From the IMG/VR virus record IMGVR_UViG_3300036944_000510, positions 1 through 21,796 of that record: DNA of 21,796 nucleotides; one strand, given 5' to 3'. The stretch is from a virus. The position numbers were made by a program, and so were the translations under genes. Positions 1,007 through 11,838 of this stretch are shown here, in pieces (the first letter of the stretch is position 1; every line of letters starts with the position of its first letter). The notes below the pieces were generated by a model. It was not told where the DNA came from and did not search any database. It saw nothing but the letters and a program-made list of their open reading frames with translations.

Positions 1007-1333
1007 ATGAATCTTGAACAATGGAAATCAAGCAAGAAATACCAAAGCCGAATTAACTACGGAACACAAATCGGCAGAGTGATCCGAGTTATGACCGAGT
1101 ATGGCGGTTGGTACACGTTGAGAGAAATCGAAAAGATGATCTCAGCTCGTTATCAGGACAAAGACACTCAAGCAGCAATCAGTGCTCGTCTACGTGAAAT
1201 TAGCGCAGTTAAACACGGCCTTGTTAAGCACAGAAGAATGGAAATGGTTAACGGCAAGCAAGTACATCGATACAGCTTAATTCCGTTTGTGCCGGTGCGT
1301 GATGTTGCTGAGAAAATCGGGGTAACGGCATGA
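1007..1333 (+). CDS. Small putative winged-helix DNA-binding protein, unknown function
   Basis: This is a 108-residue protein starting at ATG 1007, with an AGGT ribosome site at 998-1001. The frame extends upstream to 833, but that part lies over the NinH-like gene and has no convincing start. Residues about 30-75 (Y-G-G-W-Y-T-L-R-E-I, then a run of I-S-A-R-L-R-E-I) resemble a winged-helix fold used by phage DNA-binding proteins, with a likely recognition helix and a following basic wing (H-R-R-M-E). I do not recognise a specific family. It ends in an ATGA overlap with the HNH gene, so it belongs to the same operon. Function unknown. Confidence 0.6.
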   Translation: MNLEQWKSSKKYQSRINYGTQIGRVIRVMTEYGGWYTLREIEKMISARYQDKDTQAAISARLREISAVKHGLVKHRRMEMVNGKQVHRYSLIPFVPVRDVAEKIGVTA

Positions 1334-1773
1334 ACAAGAAACGTAAAGCTATTTGGGACAAGTCTGGCGGCAAGTGCTGGTATTGCGGGTGCGATCTACC
1401 TGAAAAAGGTTGGCATGCAGATCACTTTGAGGCGATTGTCAGAAGTCCAGTTATAACTGGGTATGAGACGGTAAAAAGGGAAACATACCTAGGCGTAGAT
1501 ATGTCATACAAGCGCCCAGTTTATGGAATATCCATAAAACACGAGTCTCTTGATACTCAGGACAATCTAGTACCTTCATGCGCTCCATGCAACTTAATGA
1601 AAGGCAAGCTAAGCGTTGACGGTTTCAGGAATCTAATAGCAGACCAAAAAAGAATGCTGCTAAGTAAACCATTCCTAAGAAATGCAGTGAGATTCAAAGT
1701 AATCAATTTGTCTGAAGAACCTATCGTTTTTTGGTTTGAAGAAAATAACTCTTTAGGTGGCACTCATGAATAA
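1330..1773 (+). CDS. HNH endonuclease
   Basis: A 147-residue HNH family nuclease. Visible elements are C16-x2-C19, the D31-H32 core, then N79-L-V-P with C84-x2-C87 followed by N88 and a Lys/Gly segment. These give the two zinc-binding Cys pairs and the His/Asn catalytic core of the ββα-metal fold. Residues 35-78 form an insertion between the DH and the second Cys pair. The C-terminal 50 residues show no motif. It is coupled to the preceding gene by ATGA at 1330-1333. It could be a free-standing homing nuclease or a nuclease serving phage DNA metabolism; packaging-associated HNH genes usually sit next to terminase, and this one does not. The cleavage target cannot be read from the sequence. 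Confidence 0.8.
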   Translation: MNKKRKAIWDKSGGKCWYCGCDLPEKGWHADHFEAIVRSPVITGYETVKRETYLGVDMSYKRPVYGISIKHESLDTQDNLVPSCAPCNLMKGKLSVDGFRNLIADQKRMLLSKPFLRNAVRFKVINLSEEPIVFWFEENNSLGGTHE

Positions 1774-8608: not shown

Positions 8609-10489
8609 ATGGCAAAGAAAGCTGCATCACCGATATTGCCGCGCAACATCGAAGATCCTACGGGAGTCGATAAGTTAGAGCGTGGTGCCATTAACCAGTT
8701 TGAAAAAAGACTGAAAAACATTGGCAGGCGATATGCGGATCTTGTTGAGCGAATTCCTAGCCAGCCAGTCGTTAATAAGAAATACCTGTACGAACTGGAT
8801 AGTTTAATCCTTCGCATCATCTTGGATGAAGGTGACGCTCTGATTGACGATGAGTTGATTGGTCGTGCAGAGAACGGATGGTTCTTTGAAACTTACGTAT
8901 CGACGGCCTATCAACGTGGAACTGGTCAGGAATTCTCTAATCTCTCTGCTCAATCTAAAACGTATCGGTCAGAAAACGAATCGCTAACGCAGGTCATTAG
9001 ACGTGAGCCTTATCGACGTCGAGTCGCAATGCTTCAGGCTCGTGTCTTTGAAGAGATGAAAAGCCTTACCGCAAAAGTAAAAGCGGATATGGCAAGGGTT
9101 CTGACTGATGGCATTGCCAGAGGACTCAATCCTCGTGATGTTGCTAGATCGTTAGTCACTCAAGCCAAGTTAGAGCAAGGTCGTGCTAACCGAATAGCAA
9201 GAACTGAGATACCAACTGCGTTACGTCGCGCTCGATGGGATGAAACCGAAGATGCAGAGGCGCGATACGGTTTCAAAACCATGCAGATGCACATGTCTGC
9301 GCTATCTCCAACAACGAGAACGTGGCACGCAAAAAGGCATGCGAAGTTATTCACGTTGGAGCAGGTCAGAGAGTGGTTTGCTACTGGAGCCAACTCAATT
9401 AACTGTTATCTGCCAGGAACGAGAGTCCAAGGCAGATTTTTGGCTGGTTCAAAAGCTGAGTACAGGGGGCCGGTCATCAAGATAGTGACTGCTAGTGGAA
9501 GGAATCTTACCGTCACCCCTAATCACCCCATAATGACAAGTAGGGGTTTGGTTTCGGCGGCAGAAATCAACAAAGGCGATTACGCGATCTCTCACGGCGT
9601 TGATGTTGAAGATTCTGTTGGGATAACTGACCTGTATTATCAAGATGTTGAATCCAGAATCGAGGATGTATTTACTTCTCTCTCTGAGATCGGTCATTCT
9701 TTCTTTGCTAGGGTGAGCGCTATAGACTTCCACGGCGATGCTGAATTCATGGATAAAGATATCGCAGTTGTAATGTCCGATAGGGCGCTGACCTTCACAA
9801 GAGATTCCAGAACGCTCAAGAGCTTGGATTATGTCAGCCTCAAACATACCAACTCTGCAGTTTCTCATGGCTTTGGATCTTCTGACTTTAACTTCATCAC
9901 TGTCAGCGCTTCCTCGCCTTGCAATTTGAGCGTCTTTTGCCCGGTTTTTCCTAAAATTGGCTCCGAGCTTTTGGTTGCTGAGAGTTGCTGCTTCGGACAT
10001 TGTTCGGCATTTAAAACCGTTGGATTTCAAAAACCTGTTTATTGTGATTCTGGAAAACCCAATATCCATGCTGATTTGTTGGATGGTTTCTCCACTCATA
10101 TGTCTAAGGTAGATGTCTTCTGCGGTGAAAAAGTCAGATATGAGCCTCATGCTCCTTATTCCATGCTTTCTTGCGTAGTTCATGACTGTAATTCTGGCAA
10201 TCCCGAGTTTTTTAGCAATATCGCTAGGGTCGGTTCCGGACTTCAATTCCATGACGAGATTATCGACATCGTTGTTTTTGAGTATTTTGGTCAAGTTTAC
10301 GATCTCCAAGAGGTTTCAGGTTTAATGGTTGCAAATGGAATAATAGCAAGTAATTGCAAATGTTCAAATGTAACAGTCCTAGTTGATAAAGATGGGAATC
10401 CGCTCAACGAAACGATCATTGAACGAGCCGAGAAAATGTTCAAGAAGTCGAAGTTCGCAACTAATCAAAAATGTTCATGCTGCCACTGA
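8609..10489 (+). CDS. Mu gpF/SPP1 gp7-like minor head protein, interrupted by an intein
   Basis: The precursor is 626 residues. The N-extein (1-265) is a Mu F/SPP1 gp7-type head morphogenesis protein: a helical N-terminal part, then I-A-R-T-E-I-P-T-A-L-R-R-A-R (about 197-210), H-A-K-R-H-A-K-L-F, and F-A-T-G-A-N-S-I-N. The C-extein (583-626) begins C-K-C-S-N-V and holds the end of the domain plus a Cys-rich tail (C-S-C-C-H). Removing residues 266-582 joins S-I-N to C-K-C-S, restoring the conserved N-C-x-C motif of the family, so the insertion sits at its most conserved site. The spliced protein would be 309 residues, normal for the family. It is made with portal and capsid proteins and acts in prohead assembly. 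Unspliced protein is probably inactive, so the phage depends on splicing. Confidence 0.88.
   Translation: MAKKAASPILPRNIEDPTGVDKLERGAINQFEKRLKNIGRRYADLVERIPSQPVVNKKYLYELDSLILRIILDEGDALIDDELIGRAENGWFFETYVSTAYQRGTGQEFSNLSAQSKTYRSENESLTQVIRREPYRRRVAMLQARVFEEMKSLTAKVKADMARVLTDGIARGLNPRDVARSLVTQAKLEQGRANRIARTEIPTALRRARWDETEDAEARYGFKTMQMHMSALSPTTRTWHAKRHAKLFTLEQVREWFATGANSINCYLPGTRVQGRFLAGSKAEYRGPVIKIVTASGRNLTVTPNHPIMTSRGLVSAAEINKGDYAISHGVDVEDSVGITDLYYQDVESRIEDVFTSLSEIGHSFFARVSAIDFHGDAEFMDKDIAVVMSDRALTFTRDSRTLKSLDYVSLKHTNSAVSHGFGSSDFNFITVSASSPCNLSVFCPVFPKIGSELLVAESCCFGHCSAFKTVGFQKPVYCDSGKPNIHADLLDGFSTHMSKVDVFCGEKVRYEPHAPYSMLSCVVHDCNSGNPEFFSNIARVGSGLQFHDEIIDIVVFEYFGQVYDLQEVSGLMVANGIIASNCKCSNVTVLVDKDGNPLNETIIERAEKMFKKSKFATNQKCSCCH
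9404..10354 (+). mobile_element. Intein of 317 residues in the head protein
   Basis: The intein starts at Cys1 (TGT 9404) and ends at Asn317 (AAT 10352-10354); the next residue is Cys. Block A: C-Y-L-P-G-T-R-V. Block B: N-L-T-V-T-P-N-H-P with Thr38 and His41 (T-x-x-H). Block F: F-E-Y-F-G-Q-V-Y-D-L-Q-E-V-S-G. Block G: A-N-G-I-I-A-S-N followed by Cys+1. All nucleophiles for standard class 1 splicing are present, but the penultimate residue is Ser316 where His is usual. Residues about 65-287 form the linker between splicing halves. In the sense frame this carries no recognisable endonuclease; instead the opposite strand of codons 16-302 encodes one. Inteins are selfish protein introns, spread by homing. 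Confidence 0.9.
9449..10309 (-). CDS. Putative homing endonuclease encoded antisense inside the intein
   Basis: A 286-codon minus-strand frame, nested in the intein with 45 bases of intein outside it at each end. Two similar helix-turn-helix units occur at residues about 24-51 (I-A-K-K-L-G-I-A-R-I-T-V) and 72-99 (I-S-M-D-I-G-F-S-R-I-T-I). A Vsr/PD-(D/E)XK-like nuclease domain follows at about 155-250: F-E-A-D-I (Glu157), Y-N-C-D-I-F-I (Asp183), I-A-V-E-V-Y-S-A-H-P (Glu194, His199), then R-S-K-Y-I-L-D-S-G-F-N-I-L-I-I-Q-V. DNA-binding repeats plus a small nuclease is a homing endonuclease layout. The frame opens at TTG 10309; TTG 10294, 9 bases after a GGAG, has the better ribosome site, and ATG 10252 is possible. 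A promoter candidate lies upstream at 10340-10367. Expression and cutting are inferred. Confidence 0.8.
   Translation of the reverse strand: MEIVNLTKILKNNDVDNLVMELKSGTDPSDIAKKLGIARITVMNYARKHGIRSMRLISDFFTAEDIYLRHMSGETIQQISMDIGFSRITINRFLKSNGFKCRTMSEAATLSNQKLGANFRKNRAKDAQIARRGSADSDEVKVRRSKAMRNCRVGMFEADIIQALERSGISCEGQRPIGHYNCDIFIHEFSIAVEVYSAHPSKERMTDLRERSKYILDSGFNILIIQVSYPNRIFNINAVRDRVIAFVDFCRRNQTPTCHYGVIRGDGKIPSTSSHYLDDRPPVLSF
10340..10367 (-). promoter_or_regulatory. Promoter candidate for the antisense endonuclease gene
   Basis: Read on the minus strand: TTGAAC (10367-10362), 16 bases, then TATTAT (10345-10340) preceded by TGC, an extended -10. TATTAT matches the sigma-70 -10 consensus at 5 of 6 positions and TTGAAC matches the -35 at 4 of 6. 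The expected start near 10333 would give a leader of about 25-40 bases. The -10 lies in the codons for the last intein residues and the -35 in the first C-extein codons, so the promoter spans the insertion junction. Confidence 0.55.
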
Positions 10490-10506
10490 TGCAGTTAGGG
10501 GATGAA

Positions 10507-11838
10507 ATGAAAAAATCAAAAGTTTCACTTGTCGTTAACTCATCACTCGCGGTGAATCGTGAGTCTTGCATCCAAGTGAACGTTACTACTCGCGTTAACA
10601 ATCAATCGATTCGACGCGAAACATACAACGGCCGTGAGCATTGGGTATTGCCTAGTTACACGCTACCAGCAAACGTGATTATGAACGGTGGTTTGTACAC
10701 CGCTGAGCAGATAGATAAGCACTATGAAGGTCTGGAAGGTACTTTAGCTCCGCTAGGCCATCCTACTTTGAACGGTGCATTTATCTCTGCGTTTAGTGCT
10801 GAAGGTATTAACCAAGGCCACGTTGGGGCATGGAACCGCAACGTTAAGAAATCTGGTAACCGTGTCTATGTGGAAAAATGGGTAGATATCGAGAAAGCCA
10901 AAGAGTCACCAAAAGGCAATGAGCTCATTGAGCGTGTCGAAGCTATCGAACGTGGTGACGATGTTCCTCCTATTCATACAAGTATCGCGGTTTTTCTTGA
11001 AGAGCTAGAGCCAACCGAAGAACAGCGAAACATGGGCGCGAATTGGGTGGCTGACATCAAAGCCGTTGACCATGATGCCATTCTGCTAAATGAAGTTGGC
11101 GCAGCTACACCGGAACAAGGCGTTGGTTTGATGGTTAACGCTGACCTAGCAAAGCCTATGCAGATGCTAAAAGTTAACTCTGGCGTTCTTGTGGGCGAAA
11201 GCTTCCGCGAGTTAGAACGCCGATTAGAGAAAGCCGCCAAAGATAAGTTTGCACCGGGTAACGATGAATATGCGTGGGTGGCAGACTTTACCAGTTCTCA
11301 GGCGATCGTCATTACCAACGGCGGTAAGGCAAAAGTATACGGATACAAATCTGAAAGCGGAAAAATTGTATTTGACGATGATGGTACTGATGTCCAGAGA
11401 ACTGAGTCATGGACAGCGATTATCGCAAACAAAGCAAAGAATTTATTCAACCTGCAGAAACAACCTGCAGCAAACAAACAGGAGGGCGACATGCCTTTAA
11501 CACCAGAAGAGAAAAAAGAACTCGTAGGCGAGGTTAGTCAGGCTGTCGCTGCCAATATGCAAGAAGCCTTAAAACCGATTACTGAACAGTTCACTACTTT
11601 CCAAGCAAACACAGAAGAGCAGTTCAAAAAGCTTACTGCTAACCACGATGCAGATGAAGCGCGCAAGCGTGAAGCTGTTTCAAAACAGTTCGGTGAAATC
11701 GTTGCTAACTCACTGCAAGGTGATGCTCTTGATGAAATGTTCAAGAAGTGTGGCTCTGCTGCGCCGATTGGTACCAACTCTGCTACTGAGCAGGCTGAAA
11801 CGGGTGCGCCAAAAGCGGACGAATATTTCCCTCAATAA
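10507..11838 (+). CDS. Prohead protease (DUF2213-like) with C-terminal scaffold
   Basis: A 443-residue protein from ATG 10507, with AGGGG at 10497-10501; the frame extends to 10471 without a good site. The N-terminal half resembles the DUF2213 proteins that precede capsid genes in phages: L-P-S-Y-T-L-P-A-N-V-I-M-N-G-G, then P-L-G-H-P-T-L-N-G (His85) and I-H-T-S-I-A-V (Ser159). His85 and Ser159 are candidates for a U35-like serine protease pair. The last 115 residues form an acidic/lysine-rich coiled coil (E-E-K-K-E-L-V-G-E-V-S-Q) like a scaffold. An in-frame start at 11491 behind AGGAGG would make this part separately. Expected roles: directing prohead assembly, then cleaving scaffold and head proteins. 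The C-terminal E-Y-F-P-Q leads into the decoration gene. Confidence 0.75.
   Translation: MKKSKVSLVVNSSLAVNRESCIQVNVTTRVNNQSIRRETYNGREHWVLPSYTLPANVIMNGGLYTAEQIDKHYEGLEGTLAPLGHPTLNGAFISAFSAEGINQGHVGAWNRNVKKSGNRVYVEKWVDIEKAKESPKGNELIERVEAIERGDDVPPIHTSIAVFLEELEPTEEQRNMGANWVADIKAVDHDAILLNEVGAATPEQGVGLMVNADLAKPMQMLKVNSGVLVGESFRELERRLEKAAKDKFAPGNDEYAWVADFTSSQAIVITNGGKAKVYGYKSESGKIVFDDDGTDVQRTESWTAIIANKAKNLFNLQKQPAANKQEGDMPLTPEEKKELVGEVSQAVAANMQEALKPITEQFTTFQANTEEQFKKLTANHDADEARKREAVSKQFGEIVANSLQGDALDEMFKKCGSAAPIGTNSATEQAETGAPKADEYFPQ
11448..11470 (+). repeat. Ten-base direct repeat in the protease-scaffold linker
   Basis: CAACCTGCAG occurs at 11448-11457 and 11461-11470, separated by AAA. It encodes the linker L-Q-K-Q-P-A just before the internal scaffold start at 11491. 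It may be a slippage duplication that lengthened the linker. Confidence 0.6.
11491..11838 (+). CDS. Scaffold protein from an internal in-frame start (Nu3-like)
   Basis: ATG 11491 is in frame with the protease gene and is preceded by AGGAGGG at 11480-11486, one of the strongest ribosome sites in the window. Translation from it gives a 115-residue protein starting M-P-L-T-P-E-E-K-K-E: acidic, alanine- and glutamine-rich, mostly coiled coil, with a small C-terminal domain. This copies the lambda C/Nu3 design, in which a scaffold is produced in excess from a start inside the protease gene, and the protease carries the same segment as a prohead-targeting tail. Seen: the site and frame. Inferred: separate expression. 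Confidence 0.68.
   Translation: MPLTPEEKKELVGEVSQAVAANMQEALKPITEQFTTFQANTEEQFKKLTANHDADEARKREAVSKQFGEIVANSLQGDALDEMFKKCGSAAPIGTNSATEQAETGAPKADEYFPQ

Follow-up and report, generated by a model that had tools for sequence, protein, structure and literature searches.

Can the catalytic core of a nuclease and a conserved motif of an intein be written into the same base pairs and, if so, which of the two proteins holds the sequence in place? The question is raised by a viral DNA, IMG/VR record IMGVR_UViG_3300036944_000510 (positions 1 to 21,796; this 21,796 nt stretch is the window, to which all coordinates refer), in which a gene for a MuF head protein carries an intein and the strand opposite the intein contains a long open reading frame (ORF). 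The reading that we prefer, with a probability of about 0.88, is that of a mobile intein with a homing endonuclease encoded separately, by an antisense gene that is codon-aligned with the intein through nearly its whole length.

Two codon-aligned frames in a MuF head protein gene

The plus-strand gene (8609–10489) encodes a MuF/SPP1 gp7-like head protein into which the intein is inserted. Its product matches Phage_Mu_F (2.9e-9) and Intein_splicing (5.4e-7, below the family's own gathering score) in Pfam, and a head morphogenesis family in PHROG (1.6e-113). The intein, with boundaries set by translation, has 317 amino acids (aa) and occupies 9404–10354 (+), from Cys1 at 9404 to Asn317 at 10352–10354, followed by Cys+1. 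Cys1, Asn317 and a block B TxxH in the form TPNHPIMT are hallmarks of a class 1 Hint intein; blocks A and B, including TPNHPIMT, lie in the N-terminal Hint half (9404–9583, +) and blocks F and G in the C-terminal half (10220–10354, +). The sense product is predicted to fold as a Hint intein: in the AlphaFold2 (AF2) model both Hint halves have a predicted local distance difference test (pLDDT) score over 90, codons 80–130 are fairly confident and most of 132–263 is under 50, while comparison with the Mtu RecA intein by VIA-align gives Z 12.8 (104 residues aligned, 1.1–1.2 Å). In Pfam the sense strand matched only Phage_Mu_F and Intein_splicing, and no nuclease family at E up to 1; in NCBIfam the sense linker had weak hits to a toxin A chain (E 0.02; 14.5 bits, where the cut-off is 718), which were taken as chance.

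The minus-strand ORF (9449–10309) lies wholly inside the intein and, on translation of both strands, its codon boundaries coincide with those of the intein; each sense codon is the exact reverse complement of one antisense codon, with sense position 1 being antisense position 3 and vice versa. Antisense residues are numbered here from the first TTG of the ORF. Translation likely starts at codon 6 (TTG, 10294–10292), so the protein is probably 281 aa long. The fold predicted for it is that of a Vsr/EDxHD nuclease, joined to two helix-turn-helix (HTH) domains, and it can be considered a putative homing endonuclease. The AF2 model (mean pLDDT 92.8) has a first HTH at residues 12–48 (10166–10276, −; helices 12–23, 28–35 and 39–48), a second at residues 63–96 (10022–10123, −; helices 63–71, 76–83 and 87–96) and a C-terminal nuclease domain at residues 152–252 (9554–9856, −), which holds E157, D183, E194 and R211. 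By VIA-align the model is closest to Vsr (Z 11.1, 115 aligned, 2.9 Å), I-Bth0305I (Z 9.9, 94 aligned, 2.6 Å) and 3hrl (Z 9.8), and the sequence profile of the antisense alignment A2 matches 3hrl (1e-6) and 3r3p (5.8e-5). The window protein itself scores below the Pfam gathering cut-offs for MTES_1575 (20.2 against 38.2 bits) and DUF559 (14.5 against 20.6 bits); at E up to 0.01 these families are matched by 68 and 15, respectively, of 99 family members.

As the original prediction had it, the nuclease core lies base for base opposite an intein motif. The sense residues D108-F109-H110-G111-D112 (GAC TTC CAC GGC GAT; 9725–9739, +) face antisense V195-E194-V193-A192-I191, and translation pairs F109 with E194 (9728–9730), I120 with D183 (9761–9763) and V104 with H199 (9713–9715). 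Further along, sense I120-A-V-V123 (9761–9772, +) faces antisense Y180-N-C-D183, and L146 faces E157 (9839–9841).

At E up to 0.001, 113 phage records are matched by the sense intein and 40 by the antisense protein; similarity to the nearest relative, Vibrio phage H2, is 66.1% for the antisense and 60.6% for the sense protein. A search keyed on the Hint block TPNHP alone contributed 80 viral loci, the best among 582 confirmed matches, and 38 genome loci; together with the loci found earlier these gave 148 with the block, among which 131 are distinct. Seven of these distinct inteins (L024–L029 and L031) had been found via antisense matches and the others via sense matches. The family occurs in phages and in the genomes of several bacterial phyla. 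The antisense profile is matched in the aligned frame and in the same register by 126 of the 131 inteins. No match was found in the other five (L145–L149, comprising three archaeal loci, Microbispora and Crocinitomicaceae), which are the weakest genome matches and have no copy of the motif in their displayed stretches. As the profile was made from antisense translations, sense homology alone could lift its scores and a match is by itself no proof of a gene; it is the codon tests, not the E-values, that bear the argument. Column counts below take in all 126 inteins, near-duplicates included, whereas codon-position information was calculated for 110 representatives under 80% nucleotide identity and the codon-choice test used 96 under 60%. 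Ten of the 126 inteins, for which both ends were not found, were omitted from counts of the +1 residue, stops, starts and signals (n = 116 or fewer).

Several family members depart from the common form. In one (L013:3001–3613) the sense intein ORF stops after 161 codons and a C-terminal Hint match lies further on, outside the ORF, which may reflect a broken frame or an assembly error. The intein of Rhodococcus phage REQ3 (L031:2351–3025) starts with Ala rather than Cys, and is perhaps class-3-like or splicing-dead, with the antisense D and E kept. A Brasilonema intein of about 210 aa (L140:2033–2485) has a truncated antisense frame in which the codons for the antisense E and D are retained, and is a candidate decaying nuclease. 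No mini-intein wholly without the nuclease was found among the retrieved loci, a sample (the best 80 of 582 viral matches) that favours full-length relatives.

Selection on the two strands

The sense codons TTA, CTA and TCA, which are stops on the antisense strand, account for 16 of the 5343 Leu/Ser codons inside the inteins, compared with 909 of 6658 in exteins of these genes; in the window gene the counts are 0/48 and 14/42, respectively. Interior antisense stops are absent from 101 of 116 inteins, where 6.4 such inteins would be expected from their own exteins. The pattern of substitution agrees. In ten disjoint pairs of related inteins the ratio of changes at sense positions 1 and 3 is 447:950 in the exteins and 89:162 in the Hint N region, against 242:145 in codons 67–149 (about 9602–9850) and 439:225 in the region opposite the HTH domains; codons 67–149 correspond to the interval, 9600–9850, that the original prediction named for such a comparison, and the ratio is higher in the core than in the pair's own extein in 10/10. 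The 21 overlapping pairs from which these were drawn, hand-chosen as related before counting, agree in total; the ten were drawn after the 21-pair result had been seen, by reusing no locus and dropping the most distant pairs. Related sequences are not independent, and P values of the stop-codon and pair tests are indicative only.

Codon-position information in the Hint N region is 0.874/1.204/0.42, while in the HTH region it is higher at sense third than at first positions (0.503 versus 0.178). The N-terminal Hint half is governed mainly by the sense protein and the HTH half by the antisense protein, with the core shared between the two. Single residues follow the same division: the H and N of TPNHP are kept in 125/125 while the opposite antisense residues vary (V/M and I/V), and antisense R211 is kept in 123/126, mostly opposite sense A, S or T. 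The original prediction turned on the retention of E194 and D183 among homologues, and these are kept in 125/126 and 124/126, respectively, with N181 in 123/126 and Y180 in 119/126; E157 is Glu in 122/124, opposite a sense residue that is Leu in 61 and Phe in 61. The antisense strand is under selection and the register is no chance product.

DFHGD-like strings, which the original prediction placed in other head-protein inteins, do occur there. It had also posed a choice, in which the motif is either a shadow of the nuclease or selected jointly on both strands, and the two halves of that choice hold at different residues. At F109 the codon is TTC in 105, CTC in 20 and TTG in 1 (n = 126), and never TTT, such that the choice of codon follows the antisense Glu. 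Three I/V positions nearby are fixed for different third bases (GTC/ATC, GTT/ATT and GTA/ATA) because the antisense D, N and Y require C, T and A there. The sense residue alternates between V and I at this [IV]x[VI]V stretch, and between F and L at 109, opposite antisense residues that are fixed, and the sense-constraint score of [IV]x[VI]V is 0.06–0.26 against 1.98–2.56 for the antisense. F109 and [IV]x[VI]V (opposite D183, N181 and Y180) are therefore pure nuclease shadow.

It could be argued that this applies to the whole middle of the element, which would be selected for the antisense nuclease only, with all of DFHGD a shadow and the sense linker disordered filler. Such a description is true of F109 and [IV]x[VI]V and of the region opposite the HTH domains, where it agrees with the codon-position pattern and with the low pLDDT of most of sense 132–263, but for the rest we think it unlikely. 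Antisense V193 is GTG in 81/83 (216/1353, 16%, elsewhere in the same ORFs), A192 is GCC in 89/91 (913/2137, 43%) and V191 is GTC in 64/66 (573/1353, 42%). The nuclease would permit other third bases in V, A and V and yet one is used, so H-G-D is also selected in sense; H110-G111-D112 is jointly selected on both strands. A control is provided by Acinetobacter phage IME285, which has, beside an intein-free MuF-like gene, an annotated free-standing coding sequence (CDS) for a homologue of the antisense nuclease. This protein keeps VALE and an intact D with no H-G-D opposite, its opposite aligned frame contains 13 stops, and its changes from a 96%-identical relative fall 7/7/28 by codon position, that is mostly at third positions in its own frame; the control is of one lineage only. 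Sense codons 80–130 (9641–9793, +), which hold both IEDVF and DFHGD, are moreover predicted to be ordered (pLDDT 77–90, against under 50 for most of 132–263), though conservation on the other strand could inflate that confidence, and the segment may pack on the Hint fold. The codon choice at H-G-D, the codon-position information and the IME285 control together led us to reject a pure shadow for the whole DFHGD block. A second sense-constrained spot, IEDVF (9623–9700, +; F90 and E87), lies opposite a nuclease helix and is helical in the sense model.

Putative expression signals, signs of movement and points against

In the C-terminal Hint half, codons are shared with putative signals for the antisense gene. 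The likely TTG start (10292–10294, −) is opposite Q of GQVYDL, and at the homologous column, opposite the residue before VYDL, ATG occurs in 77, GTG in 16 and TTG in 2 (95/110 in total). When the sense residue before [VI][YF][DNT][LVI] at this column is His, the CAT:CAC ratio is 67:16, compared with 290:477 in exteins. A Shine-Dalgarno (SD)-like GGAG is positioned 9 nt before the start (10304–10307, −), and SD-like sequence is found in the YDLQ codons of 60/96 inteins, with 19.9 ± 3.6 expected from synonymous resampling. Further upstream is a -10-like TATTAT (10340–10345, −; 10348–10340 with the TGC that precedes it), within the sense codons ATA ATA of GIIASN. For this signal the 18 listed near-duplicates were removed where present, leaving 103 inteins: TATAAT is found in the codons shortly before Asn in 18 (2.4 ± 1.4 expected from synonymous resampling), a TG extension in 32 (11.4 expected) and a hexamer with at least 5/6 matches plus TG in 17 (3.2 expected). 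Start, SD and -10 sequences for the antisense gene are enriched in the splicing-block codons of the family. No CDS is annotated for the antisense gene in any of the occupied-gene records examined.

The insertion site and its neighbours point to movement of the element. The window gene is occupied at SIN/CKC, while MuF genes are uninterrupted in Vibrio phages NF and Seahorse and Pseudomonas phage P52, which read SIN-CKC (NF and P52) and GIN-CKC (Seahorse); the MuF proteins of NF and Seahorse are 309 aa, equal to the extein total of the window gene. Residue +1 is C in 114, S in 1 and T in 1 of 116 inteins, and residues +1 to +3 are CRC in 58 and CKC in 20. Gordonia phages Angelicage and Kewpiedoll (L032 and L027) have 100% identical exteins (200 and 100 aa compared) around inteins of 316 and 275 aa that are only 34.7% identical. 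The presence of occupied and empty alleles, and of unlike inteins in near-identical genes, would indicate recent movement.

These alleles also bear on a rival idea, in which the antisense product regulates by binding DNA or is a nuclease that has decayed and does not home. The two HTH domains and the poorly conserved H199 fit that idea, but it is improbable given the signs of recent movement and the near-invariance of E157, D183, E194 and R211 among 94–96 inteins under 60% nucleotide identity.

In IME285 the nuclease homologue and the MuF-like gene (L030:413–1345 and 1342–2118) are tail-to-tail, with matches in BUCT629 and P1068 at 99.7%. Such an arrangement may represent an intermediate stage from which the antisense-nuclease intein arose. 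Searches of 295 and 296 genomes with the antisense profile gave mostly weak HTH-only or nuclease-only matches; matches over most of the profile were obtained from one genome in the first set (G001) and three in the second (G002, G505 and G558). Elsewhere in the window, an ORF at 1330–1773 (+) by eye resembles a free-standing HNH-type nuclease.

Several observations, besides the origin of the profile, weigh against an antisense homing endonuclease. His is present at the H199 column in only 78/124, which bears on the His-Asp part of EDxHD and does not bear out the original prediction that His199 is catalytic; besides D183 and E194, the acidic residue that is near-invariant is E157. With Foldseek, both models give E-values that exceed 0.001 (0.014–0.031 for the antisense model with 3hrl and 3r3p), and three of 116 inteins (L062, L064 and L136) have antisense stops deep in the frame. 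The usual start is absent from the aligned column in 15/110, of which four (L026, L027, L028 and L070) have ATG one codon later, a scored SD pattern is absent from 42/110 and exact TATAAT from 85/103. A promoter scan of 9300–11300 found one site where 2.4 were expected by shuffling, and the -10 of the window is not significant alone.

It is nevertheless very improbable that the sense intein alone is functional and the antisense ORF an artefact of codon usage with conservation that mirrors the intein: codon-aligned antisense frames do reflect sense similarity and are open where TTA, CTA and TCA are rare, as in the GC-rich Gordonia phages (where other frames are partly open too), but the same genes use these codons in their exteins, third positions beat first in the HTH region, R211 is kept opposite A, S or T, a free-standing homologue exists, and the stop avoidance, codon-choice and position 1:position 3 tests contradict a pure open-frame artefact.

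For the mobile intein with a separate antisense nuclease gene, we infer expression of that gene, splicing, cleavage and the cut site as follows. The plus strand would give a MuF head protein with a Hint intein that is presumably spliced out between Asn and Cys, and the minus strand a two-HTH, EDxHD/Vsr-like nuclease. The nuclease presumably cuts intein-less MuF genes at a ...(N)/C(K/R)C... site, and repair after the cut would copy the element into the empty gene. In the DFHGD block the nuclease core (Y-N-x-D...A-V-E) is opposite a sense segment, with F109 and [IV]x[VI]V owed to the nuclease and H-G-D held in sense as well. We also lean, less firmly, towards a wider view in which this is a widespread class of mobile intein whose Hint domain and EDxHD/Vsr-like nuclease have co-evolved codon for codon; splicing-block codons would double as promoter, ribosome-binding site and start, core codons as the folded sense H-G-D, and decay of the nuclease would be curbed since many changes touch the intein.

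Comparison with known systems

The homing endonucleases known from inteins are domains in frame with them, and mini-inteins that lack a nuclease are common. The window element resembles the canonical large inteins (PI-PfuI, 1dq3; PI-PkoII, 2cw7) in its Hint fold, blocks A/B/F/G, single insertion site and element-borne nuclease gene, but in those the endonuclease is an in-frame domain, whereas here it is antisense and predicted to be separately translated, with no nuclease domain found in the sense product. With a gene of its own on the opposite strand, the nuclease could be produced independently of the structural gene, as in a lysogen, and the intein may put a constraint on its loss; deep antisense stops are as rare as noted above. 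The element shares with EDxHD/Vsr-like homing endonucleases (I-Bth0305I, 3r3p; Vsr, 1cw0) the fold, the 3r3p profile match and acidic residues of the catalytic type, and is unlike I-Bth0305I and Vsr in having a D-x10-E pair (D183 and E194), no conserved His, and coding antisense to an intein.

Among the open PMC literature searched, no paper was recognised as describing an antisense-encoded intein nuclease. A 2025 preprint by Gosselin, Arsenault and Gogarten, reportedly on actinobacteriophage inteins with 'non-canonical architecture' to judge by its title, may cover part of the family, such as the Gordonia members. The nearest published analogue found is the hidden HNH of phage methylase insertions: the available part of PMC11855218 describes ShiLan and Pacc40 phage methylases with out-of-frame HNH insertions, in which no self-splicing domains were detected. 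Those cases are similar in that an in-frame insertion in a phage gene conceals, in a different frame, a nuclease thought to home; as far as that part of the article goes, they differ from the window element, where the nuclease is EDxHD/Vsr-like, antisense and within a Hint intein. A reverse ORF is also kept open against a forward gene by codon avoidance in ambigrammatic narnaviruses, which avoid UUA, CUA and UCA (PMC8316113, available part). These are RNA viruses, while the window case concerns two proteins with recognisable folds on double-stranded phage DNA.

The antisense-nuclease inteins thus offer a clear natural case of two proteins, both predicted to fold, that are encoded in codon-aligned antisense and in which near-invariant residues of the nuclease face conserved residues of the sense protein; what sense/antisense coding costs, and which rules it follows, can be tested on them directly. 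A mobile intein with an EDxHD/Vsr-like nuclease is a known kind of element, of which the antisense arrangement is a new variant, not something categorically new.

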